Of a stretch of 64,000 nt of DNA, positions 31,328-61,596 are shown one piece after another; position 1 is the stretch's first letter, and each line of letters begins with the position of its first letter. A program made the position numbers and the translations under genes. The stretch is taken from assembly GCF_018135625.1 (NCBI RefSeq), contig NZ_CP073078.1, forward strand, positions 1,302,001-1,366,000. The letters run 5' to 3'. The notes under the pieces were generated by a model. The model saw only the letters and a program-made list of their open reading frames with translations, was not told where the DNA came from and ran no database searches. Source of the DNA: Phenylobacterium montanum. Its GTDB lineage: Bacteria; Pseudomonadota; Alphaproteobacteria; Caulobacterales; Caulobacteraceae.

Positions 31328-34249
31328 ATGAGATCTAACAATAATCGCCGGCGAGCGAGTGCTTCCGCGCGCCTTACTCGTAGCGCGAGCACCCAAGTCT
31401 TGGGTTGGGCGCTGCTGTTCGCCGCCACCGGCGCGGCGGCCCAAGCCCAGGCTCCGGCGTCGTCTTCGAGCTCGCTCGACGAGATCGTGGTCACCGGCAT
31501 CCGCCACAGCCAGATCAGCGCCCTGAAAGTGAAGCGCGCCAACGAGGACATCGTCGAAGCGATCTCCGCAGAAGACATCGGCAAGCTGCCGGACGACTCC
31601 ATCGCCGACTCCATCGCCCGCCTCCCGGGCCTGGCGGCGCAGCGCGACAACAGCGGCCGCACTCAGGACATCTCCATCGACGGCCTGCCGTCGGCGATGA
31701 ACACCACCCTGCTGAACGGCTTCATGCAGGCGACCACCGACAACAACCGCACCACCCAGCTCGACCAGTATCCGGCCGAGATCATGAATTCGGTGGTGGT
31801 GTACAAGACCGGCGACGCCTCGCTGACCGGGGCCGCGATCGGCACCATCGACATGCGGACGGTTCGTCCGCTCGACTATGGCAAGACCAACCTGTTCCTG
31901 GGCGCGCAGGGCGAATACGCCCTCGAAGGCAAGCTGCAGCCCGGCGCCACCGACACCGGCTATCGCGCCAATCTCACCTACATCACCCAGCTCGACAACG
32001 ACAAAATCGGCGTGATGTTCGGCTATTCGCACATCGAGACGCCCAACCAGATCATCGCACAGCACCCTTGGGGCTACTATGCGGCGAACGATCAACTCGA
32101 GGGCGGGCTGCAGGATCAGCTTCGCAGCGATACACTCACCCGCGACAGCGGCGTTGTGACGATACAGTACAAGCCGACAGACAATCTCGAATTCGTCGTC
32201 GACGCCTTCGACTCCTCTTACGATGACGACGCCATCATTCGGGGGGTAGAGTTTCCGCTCAGCGGAACTCCGACCAACGTAGCAAACGGCACGAGTACCT
32301 GGTCGGCGCTGGCGCCGCAGCTGGAGAGCTACGACTACCGGCAGACCTCGCGCTTGCGGTCAGCCGATTTCACGATGAACTACAAGTTCGGCAACGGCTG
32401 GAAGATGCATGCCGACTACGGTTACTCCGACGCCGACAACCACTTTGACCAGCTGCAGCTGTACAACGGCTTTGGTCTCAACGGTCAGCAGAACACCACC
32501 ACTGCGACCTTGACCGAAGGCAAGGGCCCCGGCGGGAACATCGGCATCTCCAACTGGAGCGAGAACCTCGTGAACGTGGCCTTGGGGGAAAACCAAGGCT
32601 GGTCAAACTATATTCCGGCTGGCTTCCCGGGCGCCTGCCCCGGCGGGGTCGTGTCTCCGAACAATCCACCTCAATGGGGCAGCACCTGCAATGGTGGGCC
32701 CGACGCTGACCAGATGGGCGGCGCAGGACAAAACCTGATCCAACGCACCTTCGACAGCATCCAACAGACCAAGTGGTCCTTGAGCAAGGATATCCCCGGA
32801 TCGATCAGCAACATCGAAGCCGGAGTTTCCTATAGCGTCCGCAAGAAAGACTACCGCGTCGAAGAAGACGAGCTGTTTCTGCTCAGCGGGAACGAATCCC
32901 AGCCTATTCCGGCGAGCTGGCTTTCGTCCCCGACCAATATGAGCGTCTTCGGGCTGCCGGATATGTACAGCATCAATCCGCGGCAGGCCTTCAATAGCGG
33001 CCAATACGGCTCGGTCGCTGACTATCGCGCGCCCGGCGGGGGCAACGGGGCGTCGCTATCCGATTGGTCCATCAGCGAGCGGGTGATCACGCCCTATTTC
33101 AAAGCCCAGATCCGCACCGAGGTCGGCGGCCATGACCTGACCGGCAATTTCGGAATCCAGGCCGTCAATACCTCGCAAAGCGTCACGACGTCATTCGAAT
33201 ACCCGGCGGGCGGGACTGTCTTTAACTACGTGGCCATACCGTCATCCACGGAATACTGGGACGTTCTGCCGAGCCTCAACCTGACTCTGCATTTGAACGA
33301 CAGCCAGGACATTCGCTTCTCGGCTGGCCGGTCGATGGCTCGTGCGCGGTTCGACCAGATGGGCGGCGGCTCAAGCGTGAGCTTCAACTTCGCCGCCTCC
33401 GGCAATACCAGCCCGTGGAGCGGCAGCCTCGCCAACCCCAGCCTGAAGCCATGGATCTCAGACGACGTCGAGCTTACCTATGAGCGATACTTTGCTCCGG
33501 GCGAAGGCATATCGCTCGACTTCTTCTACAAGAACCTCGAAACCTACATCTATCAAAGCAGCTCGACCGCTAATTTCTCCGCCTACTATGCCGCCACCGG
33601 CCCATACACAAACAACGGCGTAACAATACCCGCGCCGATCATGACCGGTCCGGTGACCCAGTGGGTGAATGGCAATGGCGGCGCGCTCTATGGCGTCATC
33701 TTCTCGGGCAATTTCCAGCTGAAGCACCTGTCCCAGGTGTTGGACGGCTTCGGAATATCAGGCACGGCGGGGGTAATCGAAAGCACGGTCAAGATTCCGA
33801 CGGCTCCTGGCTGCGCTCTCAACAACATCAATACTTACCAGACCCCTTGCCAATCCGGCACGCCGGACGGCAATCTTCCCCAGTATTCGAAGTATGTCGC
33901 CAACGTCAGCCTGTACTGGGAAAAGAACGGTATTTCTCTGCGCCTCAACGACCGCTATCGCAGCAAATATGACCAGGAAGTTGTGGACTACAACGGCGGC
34001 CTGCAACCAGTCCTGGGCGCAGCCGAAAACATCGTGGACTTCCAGGCCGGTTATGATATTACGTCGGGCCCGCTCAAGAACCTGAGCTTCACCTTCGCAG
34101 CTGAGAACATCACCAACGAGGCGATGAACAGCTATACCGGCAGGTGGAACTCCGCCACGAACTCGGCCACCTCTCCCGACCCGAAAAATACCGTCTACTA
34201 CAAGCTGTTCGGCACCAATCTGCTGTTCGGCGTGCATTACAAGTACTAG
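31328..34249 (+). CDS. TonB-dependent receptor of the maltodextrin/oligosaccharide locus
   Basis: This 973-residue protein has a long signal peptide ending near GAAAQAQ, then the TonB box in LDEIVVTGIR. The plug domain has ISAEDIGKLPDDSIADSIAR and TLLNGFMQATTDNNRTTQLD. A large beta-barrel ends in LLFGVHYKY with a C-terminal aromatic. Receptors of this type import glucans or oligosaccharides across the outer membrane. The first quarter uses the strongly G/C-ending codons of the neighbours. From about 32,090 on, codons such as ATA, ACA, GTA and TCT become common, as if the barrel part had a different origin. It is first in the operon, followed by a strong hairpin. Confidence 0.93.
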   Translation: MRSNNNRRRASASARLTRSASTQVLGWALLFAATGAAAQAQAPASSSSSLDEIVVTGIRHSQISALKVKRANEDIVEAISAEDIGKLPDDSIADSIARLPGLAAQRDNSGRTQDISIDGLPSAMNTTLLNGFMQATTDNNRTTQLDQYPAEIMNSVVVYKTGDASLTGAAIGTIDMRTVRPLDYGKTNLFLGAQGEYALEGKLQPGATDTGYRANLTYITQLDNDKIGVMFGYSHIETPNQIIAQHPWGYYAANDQLEGGLQDQLRSDTLTRDSGVVTIQYKPTDNLEFVVDAFDSSYDDDAIIRGVEFPLSGTPTNVANGTSTWSALAPQLESYDYRQTSRLRSADFTMNYKFGNGWKMHADYGYSDADNHFDQLQLYNGFGLNGQQNTTTATLTEGKGPGGNIGISNWSENLVNVALGENQGWSNYIPAGFPGACPGGVVSPNNPPQWGSTCNGGPDADQMGGAGQNLIQRTFDSIQQTKWSLSKDIPGSISNIEAGVSYSVRKKDYRVEEDELFLLSGNESQPIPASWLSSPTNMSVFGLPDMYSINPRQAFNSGQYGSVADYRAPGGGNGASLSDWSISERVITPYFKAQIRTEVGGHDLTGNFGIQAVNTSQSVTTSFEYPAGGTVFNYVAIPSSTEYWDVLPSLNLTLHLNDSQDIRFSAGRSMARARFDQMGGGSSVSFNFAASGNTSPWSGSLANPSLKPWISDDVELTYERYFAPGEGISLDFFYKNLETYIYQSSSTANFSAYYAATGPYTNNGVTIPAPIMTGPVTQWVNGNGGALYGVIFSGNFQLKHLSQVLDGFGISGTAGVIESTVKIPTAPGCALNNINTYQTPCQSGTPDGNLPQYSKYVANVSLYWEKNGISLRLNDRYRSKYDQEVVDYNGGLQPVLGAAENIVDFQAGYDITSGPLKNLSFTFAAENITNEAMNSYTGRWNSATNSATSPDPKNTVYYKLFGTNLLFGVHYKY

Positions 34250-34291
34250 CACCTGCTCTGAACTGCGGCCTTGCAAATAGGCCCGAGCGAA

Positions 34292-34331
34292 CATGGTGGG
34301 CTTCGAGGGTGCGCCCTTGAAGCCCACCATG
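34292..34331 (+). repeat. Strong intercistronic hairpin between receptor and halogenase genes
   Basis: An 18-bp stem (5' arm 34292-34309, 3' arm 34314-34331) with a TGCG tetraloop has only one non-Watson-Crick pair (G-U). It lies 43 bp after the receptor stop and 128 bp before the halogenase start. No T-tract follows, so it is unlikely to be a full terminator. Position and strength fit a 3'-stabilising or attenuating element that keeps receptor mRNA more abundant than the enzyme mRNA. Confidence 0.75.
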
Positions 34332-34459
34332 ATCCTGACCGCCGGAGCACCCAATCCGTTGGGTCGGGCGGGGACCGGATTTTCCCGCGATCGGCAGGAT
34401 GCGATTGGTTTATTTGAAGCGTCCGCCTTCCCTTGTCAGCGCGGGCGGCGGGAGCAAGC

Positions 34460-36010
34460 ATGAATACCGACAGCGTTGAAGCGACCGCTTCCAATGTCTC
34501 CCCACTGGCGATCCGCAAGGTCGTCATCGTCGGCGGCGGCACCGCCGGCTGGATGAGCGCCGCCCTGCTCTCCAAGACTTTTGGCGCAAAGCTCGACATC
34601 ACCCTGATCGAGTCCGACGAAATCTCCACGGTGGGCGTCGGCGAGGCGACCATCCCGCACATCCAGTCGTTCAACCGCCTTGTCGGCGTCGACGAGAACG
34701 ACTTCATCAAGGCCACCCAGGGCACCTTCAAGCTCGCCATCGATTTCCGCGACTGGACTGGGCCGGGAAGCCGCTATTTCCATGCTTTTGGCCCGATCGG
34801 GCAGCATGTCGGCTGGCTCTATCCGCATCAGTACTGGCTGAAGGCCCGGCGGCTCGGACGCGCCGGCTCAATGGACGCCTTCTGCATCGGCGCCCAGGCG
34901 GCCCTGCGCAACAAGTTCATGCCCGCCGACCCCAAGGCCGGCAATTCGCCCCTGGCCGAGATCAGCCACGCCTATCATTTCGACGCCGGGCTCTACGCCG
35001 CTTATCTGCGCAAGCGGGCCGAGAGCCAGGGCGTGACCCGCATCGAAGGCAAGATCGTCGGCCACGCCAAGCGGGCCGAGGATGGCTTCATCGAGTCAGT
35101 GACGCTGGAGCGCGGCGAGACGGTTGCGGGCGAGCTCTTCATCGATTGCTCCGGCTTCCGCGGCCTCCTGATCGAACAGGCCCTCGGGGCCGGCTTCGAG
35201 GACTGGTCGCACTGGCTGCCCTGCAACCGGGCGCTCGCGGTTCCCTGCGCCTCGGTCACCCCCCTGACCCCCTATACGCGCGTCACCAAGCGCGAGGCCG
35301 GCTGGCAGTGGCGCATCCCGCTACAGCACCGGATCGGCAACGGTTATGTCTATTCCAGCGACCACATCAGCGACGACGAGGCGGCGTCCAACCTGCTCGG
35401 CCGTCTCGACGGGGAAGCGCTGGGCGACCCGCGACCGCTGCGCTTCACCCCTGGCAAGCGCAACAAGGCCTGGGTGAAGAACGTGGTGGCCGTCGGCCTG
35501 GCCAGCGGCTTCCTGGAGCCGCTGGAGTCCACCAGCATCCACATGATCCAGACGGCCCTGTTCCGCCTGCTCTCCCTGTTCCCGGACAAGCGGTTCGCCT
35601 GCGCCGATATCGACGCCTACAACGACCAGACGGATGTCGAGTACAGGTGGATCCGCGACTTCATCATCGCCCACTACAAGCTGGTCGATGAACCCACGCC
35701 GCTGTGGCGCTACTGCCGCAACATGGCGGTTCCGGAATCGCTGCAGGAAAAGCTCGACGTCTTCGCCTCGGCCGGCCGCATCTTCGCCAACACGCACGAT
35801 CTGTTCCGCGAAGTGTCCTGGATCCAGGTGCTGATCGGGCAGGGCCTGATCCCGGAACGCTACGATCCGGCCGTGGACCTTACCTCGCCTGAGGACATCC
35901 TCGCGCACCTGGACGGTGTCGAGCAGGTGGTCAGCAAGTGCGTGAATTCGATGCCCTATCATAGCGACTATATCGCGCGGACCTGCCGCGCCGGGCCGAT
36001 CTCGGCATGA
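34460..36010 (+). CDS. Flavin-dependent tryptophan-halogenase family protein
   Basis: This 516-residue protein starts at the ATG at 34460 after GGGAG. It has the FAD-binding VVIVGGGTAGWM (GGGTAG at 25-30), VGVGEATIPHI, and the family motif GWQWRIPL. FLEPLESTSIHMI supplies Glu356. Lys91 in TFKLAI corresponds to the catalytic lysine of PrnA/RebH-type halogenases. Thus the key residues for halogenation are kept. Such genes recur next to TonB receptors in sugar loci of Caulobacterales, Sphingomonads and Xanthomonads, without known substrate. Its TGA overlaps the amylase ATG by 4 bp, so translation is coupled. Confidence 0.92.
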   Translation: MNTDSVEATASNVSPLAIRKVVIVGGGTAGWMSAALLSKTFGAKLDITLIESDEISTVGVGEATIPHIQSFNRLVGVDENDFIKATQGTFKLAIDFRDWTGPGSRYFHAFGPIGQHVGWLYPHQYWLKARRLGRAGSMDAFCIGAQAALRNKFMPADPKAGNSPLAEISHAYHFDAGLYAAYLRKRAESQGVTRIEGKIVGHAKRAEDGFIESVTLERGETVAGELFIDCSGFRGLLIEQALGAGFEDWSHWLPCNRALAVPCASVTPLTPYTRVTKREAGWQWRIPLQHRIGNGYVYSSDHISDDEAASNLLGRLDGEALGDPRPLRFTPGKRNKAWVKNVVAVGLASGFLEPLESTSIHMIQTALFRLLSLFPDKRFACADIDAYNDQTDVEYRWIRDFIIAHYKLVDEPTPLWRYCRNMAVPESLQEKLDVFASAGRIFANTHDLFREVSWIQVLIGQGLIPERYDPAVDLTSPEDILAHLDGVEQVVSKCVNSMPYHSDYIARTCRAGPISA

Positions 36011-37845
36011 AGTCGAGCTTGGCGATGCTGGCCGCTTTGCTGCTCGGCGCCGGTTCGCTCGCGCCGATGGCCTGGGCGAGCGAACCGGCCGGCCCCGCCG
36101 CCTCATTCCGCGACCGCCTGCCCGAGGACGAGGTCGTCTACTTCCTGTTGCCCGACCGGTTCGCCAATGGCGATCCGGCCAACGACCGCGGCGGCCTGGG
36201 CGGCGACCGGCTCTCGACCGGCTTCGACCCCACCTCCAAGGCCTTCTACAACGGCGGCGACCTGAAGGGTCTGACCCAGCATCTGGACTATATCCAGGGC
36301 CTCGGCGTGACCGCCGTCTGGGTGGCGCCGGTCTTCACGAACAAGGCTGTCTCAGGCCCGCCGGGCCACGAATCGGCCGGCTATCACGGCTACTGGATCA
36401 CCGACTTCACCGACATCGACCCGCACTTCGGCACGCGAGCGGACTTCAAGGCCCTGGTCGACGCCGCGCACGCCCGCGGGATGAAGGTCTATATGGACAT
36501 CGTCGCCAATCACACGGCCGACGTGATCCGCTATCGCGAGTGCCCCAAGAACGACTGCACCTACCGCTCCAAGGCCGACTATCCCTATGTGCGGCGCGGC
36601 GGGGTGAACGGTCCGGCGATCAATGACGGCTTCCAAGGCGACGACGCCGACCACCAGACGATGGAGAACTTCTCCAAGCTCAAGGACCCGGACTGGGCCT
36701 ACACGCCCTATGTCCCGGCGGGCGAGGCGCGCGCCAAGAAGCCGGACTGGCTGAACGATCCGATCTACTACCACAACCGCGGAAACTCGATCTTCAAGGG
36801 CGAAAGCTCGATTTATGGCGACTTCGCCGGCCTGGACGACGTCCAGACCGAGGATCCGCGGGTGCTGGCGGGCTTCATCGACATCTATGGCCGCTGGATC
36901 GACGATTTCGGCGTCGACGGCTTCCGCATCGACACCGTGCGGCACGTGGGCCGCGAGTTCTGGACCGCCTTCGTCCCGGCCATGGCCGCCCGCGCCAAAG
37001 CCAGGGGCATTCCGAACTTCCATGTGTTCGGCGAGATCTATGACCCCGACCCCGCGGTCCTGGCCAGCTTCAGCCGAGCGGCGCCGCCGCTGGCGCCGCT
37101 GGACTTCGCCTTCCAGGGCGCGGTCACCGACGTCGTGGCCAAAGGCGAAGCGCCGTCGCGGCTGGCGCGGCTGTTCGCCGCCGACGCCGACTATGCCGGC
37201 GGCCCGGACAGCGCGCGAAAGCTGCCGACCTTCCTCGGCAACCACGACATGGGCCGCTTCGCCTGGTTCGTAAAGCAGGCCAATCCCACGGCCAGCGACG
37301 ACGAGGTCCTGCGCCGGGTGGTCCTGGGCCATGCCATGATGTTCTTCCTGCGCGGCCAGCCGGTGATCTACGCCGGCGACGAGCAGGGCTTCGTCGGGAC
37401 CGGCGGCGACCAGGACTCGCGCCAACCGCTGTTCGCCAGCCAGGTAACCGAATACATCAGGACACCGCTGATCGGGACCAAGGCCTCGGCGGCCCAGGAC
37501 CACTTCGACCCCGGCCACCCCATCTATCGCGCCCTGGCCGAGATGGCCGCCGTACGGGCCGCCGACCCGGCCCTGCGCCGCGGCGACCAGGTGGTCCGCG
37601 CGGCCGACGAGGCGCCCGGCCTGTTCGCAGTCTCGCGCCACGACCCGGTCTCGGGCGCCGAGACGCTGGTGGTGTTCAACACCAGCACCGCGCCGATCAC
37701 CGCCAGGATCAGCGTCGACGACCGATCACGATCCTGGCGCGCCCTGCATGGGACCTGCGCTTCCGCCGCCGCCGCGCCGACCAGCTATCCGGTCAGCCTC
37801 GCCGGCCTCGACTACATCATCTGCACCTCGTCCGGCGTTCAATGA
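36007..37845 (+). CDS. Secreted GH13 alpha-amylase family enzyme
   Basis: A signal peptide ends near AWASEPAG. The catalytic barrel shows the amylase residues: nucleophile Asp309 in GFRIDTVRHV, acid/base Glu343 in VFGEIYDPD, and transition-state Asp414 in LGNHDMGRF. GYHGYWITDFTDIDPHFG and MDIVANHTAD are further GH13 regions. The 612-residue length includes a beta-sandwich tail. It cleaves alpha-1,4-glucans in the periplasm or at the surface, releasing maltodextrins for import. Its start overlaps the halogenase stop, and its stop overlaps the glucosidase start. Confidence 0.95.
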   Translation: MKSSLAMLAALLLGAGSLAPMAWASEPAGPAASFRDRLPEDEVVYFLLPDRFANGDPANDRGGLGGDRLSTGFDPTSKAFYNGGDLKGLTQHLDYIQGLGVTAVWVAPVFTNKAVSGPPGHESAGYHGYWITDFTDIDPHFGTRADFKALVDAAHARGMKVYMDIVANHTADVIRYRECPKNDCTYRSKADYPYVRRGGVNGPAINDGFQGDDADHQTMENFSKLKDPDWAYTPYVPAGEARAKKPDWLNDPIYYHNRGNSIFKGESSIYGDFAGLDDVQTEDPRVLAGFIDIYGRWIDDFGVDGFRIDTVRHVGREFWTAFVPAMAARAKARGIPNFHVFGEIYDPDPAVLASFSRAAPPLAPLDFAFQGAVTDVVAKGEAPSRLARLFAADADYAGGPDSARKLPTFLGNHDMGRFAWFVKQANPTASDDEVLRRVVLGHAMMFFLRGQPVIYAGDEQGFVGTGGDQDSRQPLFASQVTEYIRTPLIGTKASAAQDHFDPGHPIYRALAEMAAVRAADPALRRGDQVVRAADEAPGLFAVSRHDPVSGAETLVVFNTSTAPITARISVDDRSRSWRALHGTCASAAAAPTSYPVSLAGLDYIICTSSGVQ

Positions 37846-39476
37846 CCTCAGTCCGTCCCGATCCCCGCCAAGCTGCGCCCGCCCCCTCGCCCAAGCCTGA
37901 ATGGTGGCGCGGGGCGGTGATCTATCAGGTCTATCCGCGCAGCTTCGCCGACACCAACGGCGACGGCGTGGGCGACCTGCCCGGCGTCACCGCCCGCCTT
38001 GACCATATCGCCTCGCTGGGCGTGGACGGCATCTGGCTCTCGCCGTTCTTCAAGTCGCCCATGCGCGACTTCGGCTACGACATCTCGGACTATCGCGCCG
38101 TGGACCCGATCTTCGGGACCCTGGACGACTTCGACCGGCTCCTGGCCCGCGCCCACGCCCTGGGCCTGAAGGTGATCATCGACCAGGTCTATTCGCACAC
38201 CTCCGACCAGCACGCCTGGTTCCAGGACAGCCGCTCGGGCCGCAACAGCGACAAGGCCGACTGGTACGTCTGGGCCGACGCCAAGCCGGACGGCTCGCCG
38301 CCCTCGAACTGGCAGTCGGTGTTCGGCGGCCCCTCCTGGACCTGGGACGCCCGCCGCGGTCAGTACTACCTGCACAACTTCCTGCCCAGCCAGCCGGACC
38401 TGAACCTGCACAACGCCGAGGTCCAAGCGGAGGTGCTGGCCACCGCCCGCTTCTGGCTGGACCGCGGGGTCGATGGCTTTCGCCTGGATGCGATCAACTT
38501 TTCCATGCACAACCCAGCCCTGATCGACAATCCGCCGGTCACCGAGCCTGGCAAGCGCACCCGGCCGTTCGACTTCCAGCAGCACATCCACAACCAGTCC
38601 CAGCCTGGCATCACCGACTTCATCGAACGGGTGCGGCTGGTCACCGACCAGTATGGCGCCTTCACCGTGGCCGAGGTCGGCGGCGAGCACGCCGAGCGCG
38701 AGATGCGGTTGTTCACCGAGGGTGAGCGGCGGCTGAACAGCGCCTACGGCTTCGACTTCCTCTATGCCGACCAGTTGACCCCGGACGTGGTGCGCCAGGC
38801 CTTCGAGACCTGGCCCGAGGCCGAGGGCGTGGGCTGGCCCAGCTGGGCCTTCTCCAATCACGACGCGCCGCGGGCCGTCAGCCGCTGGGCGGCGCCTGAG
38901 CATCGTGACGCCGCCGTGCGCCAGGGGCTGCTGCTCTTGATGGCCCTGCGTGGCAACGTCTTCCTCTACCAGGGCGAGGAGCTGGGCCTGCCCCAGGCCG
39001 AGGTGCCGTTCGACCGGCTGCGCGACCCCGAGGCGATCGTCAACTGGCCCCAGACCCTCGGCCGCGACGGCGCGCGAACGCCCATGCCGTGGAGCGCGAG
39101 TGCGCCCCATGCCGGCTTCTCCGACGCCGAGCCCTGGCTGCCGGTCGATCCCCGTCACCTGGCCCTGGCGGTTGACGCTCAGGAGGCCGACGCAAAATCC
39201 GCTCTCGCCCTCACCCGCCGCCTGATCGCCCTTCGCAAGGCCTCGCCGGCGCTGCGCCTCGGCTCGTTCGTGCTCGTTGCGGCGCCCGAGCCGATCCTGG
39301 CCTTCGAGCGCGCCAGCGACGGCCAGGCCCTCATCTGCGTCTTCAACCTCTCGCCCAACCGCCAGACCTGGACGTCGTTCGCCGGCGGGCGCGTACTGGC
39401 CCAGGTGGGCGAGACGGATCCCGCCTCTGGACAGCTCGGCCCCTATGCCGGCCTGATCCTGGAACAGCAGGCGTGA
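37842..39476 (+). CDS. GH13 alpha-glucosidase
   Basis: This 544-residue protein lacks a signal peptide, so it is cytoplasmic. GH13 subfamily 23-like residues are nucleophile Asp216 in GFRLDAINF, acid/base Glu278 in TVAEVGGEHAE, and Asp341 in FSNHDAPR. AVIYQVYPRSFADTNGDGVG at the N-terminus marks oligo-1,6-/alpha-glucosidases. It hydrolyses maltose and short maltodextrins, or sucrose, to glucose. ATGA overlap with the preceding amylase and GTGA overlap with the MFS gene make it part of one coupled unit. Confidence 0.95.
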   Translation: MTSVRPDPRQAAPAPSPKPEWWRGAVIYQVYPRSFADTNGDGVGDLPGVTARLDHIASLGVDGIWLSPFFKSPMRDFGYDISDYRAVDPIFGTLDDFDRLLARAHALGLKVIIDQVYSHTSDQHAWFQDSRSGRNSDKADWYVWADAKPDGSPPSNWQSVFGGPSWTWDARRGQYYLHNFLPSQPDLNLHNAEVQAEVLATARFWLDRGVDGFRLDAINFSMHNPALIDNPPVTEPGKRTRPFDFQQHIHNQSQPGITDFIERVRLVTDQYGAFTVAEVGGEHAEREMRLFTEGERRLNSAYGFDFLYADQLTPDVVRQAFETWPEAEGVGWPSWAFSNHDAPRAVSRWAAPEHRDAAVRQGLLLLMALRGNVFLYQGEELGLPQAEVPFDRLRDPEAIVNWPQTLGRDGARTPMPWSASAPHAGFSDAEPWLPVDPRHLALAVDAQEADAKSALALTRRLIALRKASPALRLGSFVLVAAPEPILAFERASDGQALICVFNLSPNRQTWTSFAGGRVLAQVGETDPASGQLGPYAGLILEQQA

Positions 39477-41005
39477 CCGAGGGCGGGGCCGTGCAGAAGC
39501 CGAGATTGAGGTTCGGGCAGATCTGGAACCTGTGCTTCGGCTTCTTCGGCATCCAGATCGGCTTTGGCCTGCAGAACGCCAATACCAGCCGCATCTTCCA
39601 GACCCTCGGCGCCGATGTCGACAAGCTGGCCATTCTGTGGATCGCCGCGCCCCTGACCGGCATGCTGGTGCAGCCGATCATCGGCCACATGAGCGACAAG
39701 ACCTGGGGTCCGCTCGGCCGCCGCCGACCTTATTTCCTGGCGGGCGCCCTGCTCTCCACCGCCGCCCTGCTGTTCATGCCCAGCGCGCCGGTGCTGTGGC
39801 TGGCTGCGGGGACCCTCTGGGTGATGGACGCCTCGATCAATGTCACCATGGAGCCGTTCCGCGCCTTCGTCGGCGACCTTCTGCCCGAGGAGCAGCGCAC
39901 CACCGGCTTCGCCACCCAGAGCTTCTTCATCGGCGCGGGGGCGGTGTTCGCCTCGGCCCTACCTTGGATGCTGAGCCACTGGCTGCATGTGGCCAACACC
40001 GCCCCGGCCGGCGTGACGCCGCCCTCGGTGCGCATCGCCTACTATGTCGGCGGGGTCTGCCTGCTGCTGGCCGTGCTCTGGACCATCGCCAGCAGCAAGG
40101 AATATTCGCCGGAAGAAGCCGCCCGCTTCGCCAGCCCGGTCGATCCGACAGCCGTCCATGCGGCCCGCCGGTCGCCGAGCTTCTACCTCAAGGGCGGCGG
40201 CCTCTGCCTCGCCCTGGGCGCCCTGGTGACGCTGGCGGTGCGCGCCTTCGCGCTCGGCAAGGAGGTCTATGTCCTCGGCGGCTTGATCGCCCTGTTCGGC
40301 CTGGCCCAGCTCGCGGCCGGGAGCTTGCGGGCCGCGGGCCGCGGAGCCGGCGGCCTGACCGAGGTGGTCGACGATCTCTTCGCCATGCCCAAGGTCATGC
40401 GGCAGCTGGCCGTGGTGCAGTTCTTCACCTGGTTCGGCCTGTTCGCCATGTGGATCTACACCACCGCGGCGGTGACCAGCTTCCACTACGGCGTCCATGA
40501 CACCGCCTCGAAGGCCTACAACGAAGGCGCCGACTGGGTCGGGGTGCTGTTTGCGGTCTACAATGGCGTGGGCGCGCTGAGCGCCTTCGCCCTGCCGGCG
40601 CTGGCCGCCCGCATCGGCCGGCGGCAGGCTCATGCCCTGGCCCTCACCCTGGGCGCCCTCGGCCTTGCGTCCTTCATGCTGATCCGCGATCCGCAGATGC
40701 TGTGGGCGCCGATGATCGGGGTGGGAATCGCCTGGGCCTCGATCCTGTCCGCGCCCTATTCGATCCTCTCGGGCGCCGCGCCGGCCGCCAAGATGGGCGT
40801 CTATATGGGCATCTTCAACATCTTCATCGTCACCCCCCAGCTCCTGGCGGCCACCCTGCTTGGCCTGATGCTGAAGACCTTCTTCGCCGGCCAGCCGATC
40901 TGGGCCCTGGCGGTCGGCGGCGCCTCCCTGGGCCTCGCCGCCCTCGCCGTCCTGGCCGTGGCCGACGACGCGGACCCGGCGCGGGCGAAACGGGCCGTCG
41001 CCTGA
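39473..41005 (+). CDS. MFS sugar:cation symporter (GPH/SUC-like)
   Basis: The gene starts with a GTG overlapping the glucosidase TGA. The 510-residue protein has twelve predicted helices. WNLCFGFFGIQIGFGLQNAN and GPLGRRRPYFLAGALLSTAA belong to the sugar-symporter branch related to maltose/sucrose carriers of Xanthomonads, Caulobacter and plants (SUC). It should carry maltose or maltodextrin through the inner membrane to the cytoplasmic glucosidase. Last gene of the coupled operon. Confidence 0.92.
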   Translation: MTEGGAVQKPRLRFGQIWNLCFGFFGIQIGFGLQNANTSRIFQTLGADVDKLAILWIAAPLTGMLVQPIIGHMSDKTWGPLGRRRPYFLAGALLSTAALLFMPSAPVLWLAAGTLWVMDASINVTMEPFRAFVGDLLPEEQRTTGFATQSFFIGAGAVFASALPWMLSHWLHVANTAPAGVTPPSVRIAYYVGGVCLLLAVLWTIASSKEYSPEEAARFASPVDPTAVHAARRSPSFYLKGGGLCLALGALVTLAVRAFALGKEVYVLGGLIALFGLAQLAAGSLRAAGRGAGGLTEVVDDLFAMPKVMRQLAVVQFFTWFGLFAMWIYTTAAVTSFHYGVHDTASKAYNEGADWVGVLFAVYNGVGALSAFALPALAARIGRRQAHALALTLGALGLASFMLIRDPQMLWAPMIGVGIAWASILSAPYSILSGAAPAAKMGVYMGIFNIFIVTPQLLAATLLGLMLKTFFAGQPIWALAVGGASLGLAALAVLAVADDADPARAKRAVA

Positions 41006-59878: not shown

Positions 59879-61234
59879 ATGCAGCTCAATCTGGACTGCG
59901 CGAGGCTGCTCGCGCTCCTGACCGTCCTCGCAGCGAGCCTGGCCCAGGCGGCGCCTGCAAACGCCGTCCCGGCCTTCGCCGCCCAGACCGGCCAGCCCTG
60001 CCAGATGTGCCATGTGGGCGGGTTCGGGCCGCAGCTCACCGTGTTCGGCCGCAATTTCAAGCTGCACGGCTACACTCAGCGCGCAACGCCGTTCAGCATC
60101 CCGCTCTCGGCCATGGTCGAGGCGTCCTACGTCCGCACCACCAAGGCGCAGGCCGCTCCGCCGGCGCCCGATTTCGCACGAAACGACAATGTCGCCCTGG
60201 ACCAGGCCAGCCTGTTCTTCGCCGGCGGCTTCGGCGAGCATTTGGGCGCCTTCGTCCAGGCCACCTATGACGGCGTGGCCAGGGCCTTCAGCTGGGACAA
60301 CCTGGATGTCCGGGCCACAACCACGACGCAGCTCGCCGGGCATGACGTGGTCGTGGGCGCCAGCCTGAACAATGCGCCGGGCGTGCAGGACGCCTGGAAC
60401 ACCCTGCCGGCCTGGGGCTTCCCCTATTCCGGCTCCAGCCTTGCGCCGGCGCCCGCGACCACGCCCCTGATCGACGGCGCCCTGGCCCAGACCAGCCTGG
60501 GCCTTACCGGCTACGCCTGGATCGACTCCAGCCTGTATCTCGAAGGCGGCGCCTACGGCTCGCCGGGCGCCACGAGCCTCGCCCGCCTGGGCGCCGATCC
60601 CACCTCGCCTGGCGACATATCCGGCCTGGCCCCCTACGGCCGGATCGCCTTTCAGAAGATGATGGGCAATGCGGCGCTCGAGGTCGGCGCCTTCGGCGTC
60701 GACGCCAGCATCCATCCCGGCCTCGACCGCTCGACGGGCTTCCTGGACCGCTACACCGACCTGGGCGTCGACGCCTCCTACGAGGCGCCCCTGGCCCATG
60801 GCGACATCTTCGCCGTCAACGCCCGCTACACCCATGAGCGCCAGGCGCTGCAGGCGACCTGCGCCTTGGCGATCGAAGGCCGCCCGGGCGGCTGCGGGCA
60901 CAGCCATCTCGACGAGATGACCGCCGACGTCTCCTACTATTGGCATGGCTGGCTGGGCGCGACCCTGGCGGGGTTCGACACCACCGGCTCGGCCAACCCC
61001 GTGATCTACGCCGGCAACCGCACCTTCAGGCCCGACAGCACCGGGGTGATGCTGCAGCTCGACGCCACCCCGTTCGGCGGGCGGCCACAGCCGGCGCGGC
61101 GGGCGAACCTGAGGGTCGGGCTGCAATACACCGCCTACACCCGCTTCGACGGCGCCGGGGTCAATTTCGACGGCGCTGGGACCCGCGCTTCGGACAACAA
61201 CACCTTCAGGGTATTCACATGGCTCGCCTTCTGA
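59879..61234 (+). CDS. Cyc2-like fused monohaem cytochrome c/outer-membrane porin
   Basis: The ATG at 59879 follows AGAGGC; a TTG at 59837 is less likely. A signal peptide ends near ANA (residue 29). AVPAFAAQTGQPCQMCHVGG follows, with one haem motif CxxCH at 41-45, then LTVFGRNFKLHGYT. This is the start typical of Cyc2, the outer-membrane iron oxidase in which a monohaem cytochrome plugs a 16-strand barrel. The remaining 390 residues alternate short beta strands and Gly/Ala loops and end in a C-terminal Phe (VFTWLAF), the outer-membrane barrel mark. Length (451) fits Cyc2. Iron oxidation is not shown. Confidence 0.75.
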   Translation: MQLNLDCARLLALLTVLAASLAQAAPANAVPAFAAQTGQPCQMCHVGGFGPQLTVFGRNFKLHGYTQRATPFSIPLSAMVEASYVRTTKAQAAPPAPDFARNDNVALDQASLFFAGGFGEHLGAFVQATYDGVARAFSWDNLDVRATTTTQLAGHDVVVGASLNNAPGVQDAWNTLPAWGFPYSGSSLAPAPATTPLIDGALAQTSLGLTGYAWIDSSLYLEGGAYGSPGATSLARLGADPTSPGDISGLAPYGRIAFQKMMGNAALEVGAFGVDASIHPGLDRSTGFLDRYTDLGVDASYEAPLAHGDIFAVNARYTHERQALQATCALAIEGRPGGCGHSHLDEMTADVSYYWHGWLGATLAGFDTTGSANPVIYAGNRTFRPDSTGVMLQLDATPFGGRPQPARRANLRVGLQYTAYTRFDGAGVNFDGAGTRASDNNTFRVFTWLAF

Positions 61235-61596
61235 TCCTGACCGTGCTCGCCGCACTGGCGGCCCCCCTGGCCCAGGCTGTCGCCGGGGCCGACCCTGGCC
61301 AAGGCCGGGCGGTGTTCGCCGCCCAGTGCGGGGTTTGCCATTCCAACGCCCGTAGCGGCGGGGTGATCGTCGGGCCGCCTCTGTATGGGGTGGTAGGGCG
61401 CAAGGCCGGCACGGTGGCCGGCTTCGACTATTCACAGGCGATGAAAGGCGCCGGCTTCGTCTGGACCCCAGACCGGCTGCACGCCTACCTGCCGGCGCCG
61501 CGCGACTACCTGCCGGGGGTCAAGATGACCTATGCCGGGCTGAAGGACCCGAACAAGCTCGACAGCCTGATCGCCTATCTGCAGACGCTCCGGTGA
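61219..61596 (+). CDS. Class I c-type cytochrome
   Basis: The ATG at 61219 lies within the end of the Cyc2-like gene (16-bp overlap in another frame), so the two genes are co-expressed. The 125-residue protein has a signal peptide and haem site QCGVCHSN (Cys37, Cys40, His41). GPPLYGVVGRKAGTVAGFDY follows, with the axial Met103 in GVKMTYAG. This is a mitochondrial-type cytochrome c of the periplasm. It is the likely electron partner for the outer-membrane cytochrome, passing electrons to or from a terminal oxidase. Confidence 0.92.
   Translation: MARLLILTVLAALAAPLAQAVAGADPGQGRAVFAAQCGVCHSNARSGGVIVGPPLYGVVGRKAGTVAGFDYSQAMKGAGFVWTPDRLHAYLPAPRDYLPGVKMTYAGLKDPNKLDSLIAYLQTLR

Follow-up and report, generated by a model that had tools for sequence, protein, structure and literature searches.

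P0001, encoded in the Phenylobacterium montanum window (the whole stretch of 64,000 nucleotides that we analyzed, positions 1,302,001 to 1,366,000 of NZ_CP073078.1), is a monohaem cytochrome-porin fusion and, judged from its sequence, represents a Cyc2-like variant that lies outside Cyc2 in the strict sense, as that sense is defined in the available sections of PMC8406198. We consider it reasonably likely that P0001 serves as a gate through which electrons flow inward to P0002, a coupled periplasmic cytochrome c, whatever the donor may be. The features on which this reading is built are listed in the table.

Features of the cytochrome-porin gene and of its partner gene, with positions in the window
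Feature	Position	Strand	Basis
Cytochrome-porin fusion P0001, 451 aa	59879..61234	+	ORF; 16-strand model; porin folds in PDB; homologues
Probable signal peptide, residues 1-28	59879..59962	+	Hydrophobic stretch with AxA sites, judged by eye
AVPAFAAQT, counterpart of Cyc2 motif AXPXFAR[Q/K][T/Y], with Ala35 at the Arg position	59963..59989	+	Sequence; motif from the available sections of PMC8406198
CQMCH, single haem-c attachment site, residues 41-45	59999..60013	+	Sequence
Predicted 16-strand beta-barrel, residues 76-450	60104..61228	+	AlphaFold2 model
Ribosome-binding-site-like AGG codon for R444, 8 bases upstream of the P0002 ATG	61208..61210	+	
16-bp overlap of the P0001 and P0002 genes	61219..61234	+	ORFs
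Class I cytochrome c P0002, 125 aa, signal-like N-terminus, CGVCH	61219..61596	+	PF00034

The P0001 reading frame begins with an ATG at 59879, closes with a TGA ending at 61234, and specifies Phe as the C-terminal residue. CQMCH sits within AVPAFAAQTGQPCQMCH, is followed by FGRNFKLHGY, and is the only CxxCH of the protein; PQL occupies residues 51-53 downstream of it, and C41, C44, H45, P51, and L53 were invariant in a 20-row alignment. Searches with P0001 against Pfam and NCBIfam gave zero matches at E 5, and sequence searches of solved structures likewise returned none, either for P0001 or for its profile. The AlphaFold2 model of P0001, built from 20 rows, had a mean pLDDT of 79.9 and a pTM of 0.81, and displayed 16 strands of at least 3 residues between residues 76 and 450; over residues 31-50, pLDDT fell to ~60-65, and haem is absent from the model. 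In Foldseek, the model matched porins of both the general diffusion and the substrate-specific type, including OprP (6.9e-8) and OprO (6.4e-7), at modest TM-scores of 0.45 to 0.50 by query (VhChiP 5mdo, OprP, OprO 4rjx). P0001 shares the 16-strand barrel with OprP/OprO, OmpC/OmpF, and chitoporin, but these proteins lack a covalent haem and are only 8-14% identical to it in the fold alignments. The 451 residues and 16 modelled strands also agree with the porin criterion given in the available sections of PMC8406198, i.e., at least 365 aa and a 16-strand domain. Hence a preliminary description of this locus, made from the letters alone, was right about the 451 residues ending in Phe, the CxxCH at residues 41-45 with FGRNFKLHGY behind it, and a signal peptide that is apparent by eye, and the AlphaFold modelling that it had proposed did yield a 16-strand porin with matches to porin folds; its barrel of about 390 residues stands as a barrel but is shorter, at ~375 residues.

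To place P0001 relative to Cyc2, we compared it with the published motif. According to the available sections of PMC8406198, AXPXFAR[Q/K][T/Y] is unique to Cyc2, and sequences without PXFAR[Q/K][T/Y] were dropped before the 1,593-sequence Cyc2 tree was built. P0001 fails this test at a single position, as AVPAFAAQT matches everywhere except at the Arg. Because the published tree excluded sequences of this kind, we do not file P0001 as Cyc2 in the strict sense, and since the motif acted as a filter, its universality in that tree would be partly a matter of construction. Among the 92 full-length rows of our own tree, from which L019, L025, and L057 had been dropped as short or split, 53 lacked the Arg and 39 carried it; the full motif was present in 31 of the 39, and 50 of the 53 fit the motif at every other position. 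P0001 fell in a 45-row clade (support 100/100) in which no row carries the Arg, the position being occupied by Val (22 rows), Ala (10), Met (4), Glu (4), Ile (2), Asp (2), or Thr (1). Caulobacteraceae account for 38 of the 45 rows, and Polymorphobacter and MAGs labelled Alphaproteobacteria or Proteobacteria supply the rest; P0001 is 51-66% identical to 16 other members. Arg-bearing members occur in Caulobacteraceae as well (L105, L107), and Arg-less proteins outside the clade comprise seven rows, each with a cupredoxin nearby, plus a plasmid copy from Acidithiobacillus ferrooxidans. Several independent losses of the Arg were considered and are not claimed: parsimony required 3 label changes, yet the AU test does not reject a single Arg-less clade (p 0.08).

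The similarity to Arg-bearing proteins runs the length of the protein. With hhalign, 17 rows of the P0001 clade aligned end to end with nine Arg-bearing proteins, seven of which carry the full motif (E 1e-114, 421 columns). Against two presumed Zetaproteobacterial types, the alignments covered 267 columns (E 1.3e-15) and 55 columns (E 3.2e-8). On this profile evidence, the P0001 clade is homologous to motif-conforming cytochrome-porins, yet would not pass the published Cyc2 screen. A possible second departure concerns PQL, whose Pro is the sixth residue counted from the His, whereas the Cyc2 rule, as stated in the available literature, has PXL 4 residues downstream; the wider spacing is also seen in some Arg-bearing rows (e.g., L041 and L021). 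The published requirement of one CXXCH, located at the N-terminus, does describe P0001, insofar as the available text sets it out. As far as the accessible portions of the sources go, Cyc2 of A. ferrooxidans and Mariprofundus ferrooxydans PV-1 and Cyt572 of Leptospirillum resemble P0001 in their apparent signal peptide, single N-terminal CxxCH, PXL after the CxxCH, porin of 16 predicted strands, length of >365 aa, and profile homology via motif-bearing relatives. P0001 differs in its Ala for the motif Arg, in its more distant PQL, and in belonging to a host in which RuBisCO was not found. By analogy with these proteins, P0001 would work like Cyc2. A search with the rusticyanin model TIGR03095 for the Acidithiobacillus cyc2 operon gave weak matches in 51 of 398 genomes and none above the cut-off in any of the 398, so our tree holds no functionally proven Cyc2. 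The Cyc2 N-terminal pattern claimed in the preliminary description is therefore borne out for the single CxxCH and the rest of the motif but not for the Arg, whose replacement by Ala35 had gone unremarked; homology does reach beyond the CxxCH, and the alternative raised there, an unstudied Cyc2 relative, describes P0001 better than plain Cyc2, given that the published motif is not fully matched (R to A). Our literature search, in coverage that excluded most subscription journals, returned no paper joining Cyc2 with Phenylobacterium, Caulobacteraceae, or Caulobacterales, and Cyc2, iron, and lithotroph are absent from the main text of a 2025 Caulobacterales survey (PMC12700997). Cyc2 and Caulobacter do occur together in two papers, whose titles concern Zetaproteobacteria and Acidithiobacillus.

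Relatives are scattered over many genomes. Scanning named genomes turned up 19 loci, each in a MAG record, with the titles Phenylobacterium (2), Caulobacteraceae (8), and Alpha-, Beta-, or Gammaproteobacteria or Proteobacteria (9). Matches were found in 38 of 249 Caulobacteraceae genomes (own genome included), representing 9 of 22 genera, and in 89 of 398 genomes of a phylum sample, 65 of the 89 being members of one family, presumed Mariprofundaceae. Nine plasmid records carry a relative, i.e., those from Polymorphobacter (56%), Caballeronia (2), Acidiphilium (2), A. ferrooxidans, Ideonella, Paraburkholderia, and Methylocystis. Exactly one CxxCH was present in 107 of 108 profile-matching ORFs (repeated loci counted); the one ORF that deviates is the 3' portion of a gene that is split. 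The P. montanum genome itself encodes a second cytochrome-porin, 68% identical to P0001 (C1:1709400-1710719; L112:7398-8768, minus strand), which has its own 16-bp-overlapping cytochrome c followed by a convergent multicopper oxidase. Two of the plasmid copies are Arg-less and lie near transposase genes and a cytochrome c gene, namely that of A. ferrooxidans YQ-N3 (L024, CP084173.1) and that of Acidiphilium multivorum (L025, NC_015179.1), the latter split into two ORFs. A further kind, which carries Gln (FAQQTG) and has cupredoxin genes nearby, was seen at L109, L110, L106, L108, and L111 (genomes G020, G033, G054, G061, and G117), and four of these five genomes (G020, G033, G054, and G117) carry the kind found in the window as well.

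The assignment of P0002 to the class I cytochromes c follows from its PF00034 score of 34.4 bits, above the gathering cut-off of 21.3; its best NCBIfam match was cytochrome c-550 CycA at 78.8 bits, far under the cut-off of 240. Both the class I cytochrome c gene and its 16-bp overlap with the porin gene had been named beforehand and are confirmed, and the overall picture, in which a member of the Caulobacteraceae couples a periplasmic cytochrome c to a monohaem cytochrome-porin fusion, is supported. A cytochrome c ORF lies on the porin's strand, no more than 1.5 kb from the porin stop, at 23 clade loci, and the same 16-bp overlap was present at 18 of them, counting the start that gives 16 bp wherever several starts were possible; one of the remaining five loci has a 4-bp overlap and four have none. 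At the 18 overlap loci, the cytochrome ATG is formed from porin codons of the last strand (xxA-TGG), which specify Thr-Trp (14), Leu-Trp (3), or Ala-Trp (1). For the Arg located 8 bases upstream, AGG is the codon at all 18 of these loci versus 11 of 27 other loci, with AGG making up 102 of the 946 Arg codons in the clade porins; kinship inflates this contrast, and its Fisher value (p 2e-5), which ignores kinship, is not used as a probability. That both the cytochrome start and a ribosome-site-like codon lie inside a barrel strand suggests that the two products are made together.

Pairing with an electron carrier extends beyond the overlap loci. Across the 45-row clade, a carrier ORF (cytochrome c, HiPIP-like, or cupredoxin) was found within 100 bp at 36 loci, within 300 bp at 37, and within 1 kb at 40, measured to stop-to-stop ORF edges from a porin start that was assumed to lie 40 residues ahead of the first Cys; these edges are ones which can be nearer than the true start (at L121, the first fitting start of the cytochrome is 310 bp away). 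At two of the other five loci, a cytochrome c is situated 2.4-2.5 kb away; at the remaining three, the sequence extends <300 bp upstream of the porin and includes no downstream flank. Carrier density was 40 in 26.9 kb near the porin versus 3 in 247 kb at 1.5-4.5 kb, using seeds that were chosen after these neighbourhoods had been seen and that were the same for the near and far zones. Within 300 bp, 20 of the 45 loci have a downstream cytochrome c, 12 an upstream HiPIP-like protein, 2 a cytochrome c plus a HiPIP-like protein, and 3 a cupredoxin with or without a HiPIP-like protein, leaving 8 with none. Here, HiPIP-like denotes a four-Cys pattern, kept in 16 of 16 such neighbours, together with similarity to seeds that include the confirmed L023 (93.3 bits); against PF01355, these neighbours ranged from no match to 21.7 bits, the cut-off being 22. 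The cupredoxin neighbours that were scanned belong to PF00127.

On the tree, at least 6 switches of carrier kind occur within the 34 single-kind rows of the clade, and 10 within the 61 single-kind rows of the whole tree; this count omits rows that have either no carrier or carriers of two kinds (11 of 45 in the clade). Such changes are expected if electron hand-over, rather than one partner protein, is what has been conserved. No carrier was found near the presumed Zetaproteobacterial rows, most of whose loci have only ~1.5 kb of flank or less. At L008:5689-10343, a HiPIP-like gene and a cytochrome-porin gene are followed on the opposite strand by genes for a dihaem cytochrome and for two oxidase subunits, I and II (COX1, 3.1e-87; COX2, 2.1e-8), so arranged that the locus is a candidate for a compact chain from the outer membrane to oxygen. 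Similar company has been reported for Cyc2 itself in the available sections of three papers: cyc2 often adjoins a cytochrome c gene in Acetobacteraceae (PMC10715153), is clustered with a HiPIP and three cytochromes c in Bradyrhizobium (PMC5566968), and belongs to the rus operon, cyc2-cyc1-cup-cox-rus, in Acidithiobacillus (PMC10654088). Like these clusters, so far as those sections describe them, the P0001 clade sets an outer-membrane cytochrome-porin beside periplasmic one-electron carriers, and L008 resembles them further in having an oxidase. The P0001 clade differs in that there is usually one carrier kind, which varies within the clade, and in that the carrier start is embedded in the porin gene at 18 loci; the available portions of the three papers contain no description of carrier kinds being exchanged within one clade.

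Taken as a mechanism, P0001 would be an outer-membrane electron gate whose 16-strand barrel holds a monohaem plug near the periplasmic mouth. A small reductant would enter the pore from outside, the haem plug would take up single electrons and hand them to the co-translated P0002, and P0002 would pass them to the respiratory chain, via an oxidase or the bc1 complex. That electrons cross the outer membrane by this route is, in our judgment, very likely; that they travel inward is likely, though with less assurance. Dissolved Fe(II) appears the best single candidate for the donor, since the Cyc2 proteins assayed so far oxidize Fe(II), as stated in the available sections of PMC8406198, which describe Fe(II) oxidation by the Mariprofundus Cyc2 and leave function unsure for distant Cyc2 homologues. 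Even so, we put Fe(II) as the main donor at slightly under an even chance, and the donor may differ if the missing Arg matters for haem potential or Fe(II) docking. Neither RuBisCO nor the type II reaction centre (PF00124) was found in the P. montanum genome at E 0.001, with positive control genomes in both searches, which makes Fe(II)-driven Calvin-cycle autotrophy unlikely; Fe(II) would rather be an auxiliary electron source of a heterotroph. HiPIP (PF01355) was also not found in this genome at E 0.001 with positive controls, a weak negative given that the HiPIP-like proteins of relatives score below the cut-off.

Much of the same evidence could be accommodated by a gate of identical core whose donor is not Fe(II) but some other soluble reductant, such as Mn(II), Cu(I), reduced humics, or phenols, a reading we regard as unlikely. 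The paralogue beside a multicopper oxidase would then belong to a metal-oxidizing set, and multicopper oxidases do lie within 2 kb at L112 and at relatives L081, L089, L010, and L015 (Pfam-confirmed at L010, L112, and L081), while the absence of the motif Arg and the failure to find RuBisCO and a type II reaction centre in the own genome point the same way. Such an oxidase is nevertheless present at only 5 of the 45 clade loci, and around the P0001 gene, none was seen in 6.9 kb of upstream and 2.8 kb of downstream sequence. A haem at 208 mV fits Mn(II) poorly. This potential suits Fe(II) at neutral pH, according to the available sections of PMC8406198, and was measured for Mariprofundus only. 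In favour of the reading, Cyc2 has also been proposed to act in Mn(II) oxidation in Ca. Manganitrophaceae (PMC9040806, in the sections available). The multicopper oxidase locus L081 also encodes a weakly hemerythrin-like protein (PF01814, 17.4 bits, below the cut-off).

It is improbable, in our estimate, that the gate works outward and, under oxygen shortage, disposes of electrons on an acceptor outside the cell such as Fe(III) or humics. The potential of HiPIPs and cupredoxins is usually high. Carriers of that sort fit a role in which they accept electrons from the haem and deliver them to an oxidase, and L008 pairs the gate with oxidase subunits, both of which speak against outward flow. Electron carriers are reversible, however, and Cyc2/Cyc1 isoforms of Acidithiobacillus are also discussed for ferric iron reduction in the available sections of PMC10715153. 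Far less probable still is a structural or uptake porin in which the haem has no part in electron transfer and acts, e.g., as a sensor or fold anchor: the fold matches are to general diffusion and substrate-specific porins, but the redox-carrier neighbours, their changing kind, and the near-universal single CxxCH argue otherwise. An ordinary diffusion porin with a chance CxxCH was dropped on neighbourhood and conservation, and a complex of the MtrAB/MtoAB/PioAB type was dropped because P0001 and P0002 have one CxxCH each and the barrel has 16 strands. Those complexes also lead electrons through an outer-membrane barrel, but with a separate decahaem protein (PMC5566968) and a 26-strand barrel (PMC10654088), as described in the available sections, whereas the haem of P0001 would reside in the barrel polypeptide itself.

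Going beyond the inward-flow gate, we tentatively suggest, as a rather unlikely extension, that the Arg-less, Caulobacteraceae-centred clade may constitute a modular electron-entry device in which the barrel is retained, the periplasmic partner is swapped among cytochrome c, HiPIP, and cupredoxin, and the loss of the Arg signals that the haem potential has shifted and that the donor is not Fe(II), yielding auxiliary energy for heterotrophs. Among the marker-gene candidates for microbial Fe(II) oxidation, Cyc2 is a leading one, and the published tree required the FAR motif; as the P0001 clade has the structural hallmarks and fails the motif screen, extracellular electron exchange may be under-counted in Caulobacteraceae. 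This family includes genetically tractable laboratory strains, and if one of them carries the gene or is able to express it, a Cyc2-like role outside known iron oxidizers becomes a question for a deletion mutant. The changing carrier kinds, in turn, offer naturally occurring variants with which to study the demands that a haem bound to a porin places on its partner.

As for the surroundings, the P0001 gene is preceded by genes for a DUF1295 protein and a PEBP-family protein and, on the downstream side, the neighbours are an asparaginase and a glutathione transferase, none with an evident link to P0001. Elsewhere in the window, at 31400-41005, a TonB-receptor-like protein, a halogenase-like FAD protein, amylase-like proteins, and a transporter are encoded in a row, which, judged by eye, looks like an alpha-glucan utilization cluster.
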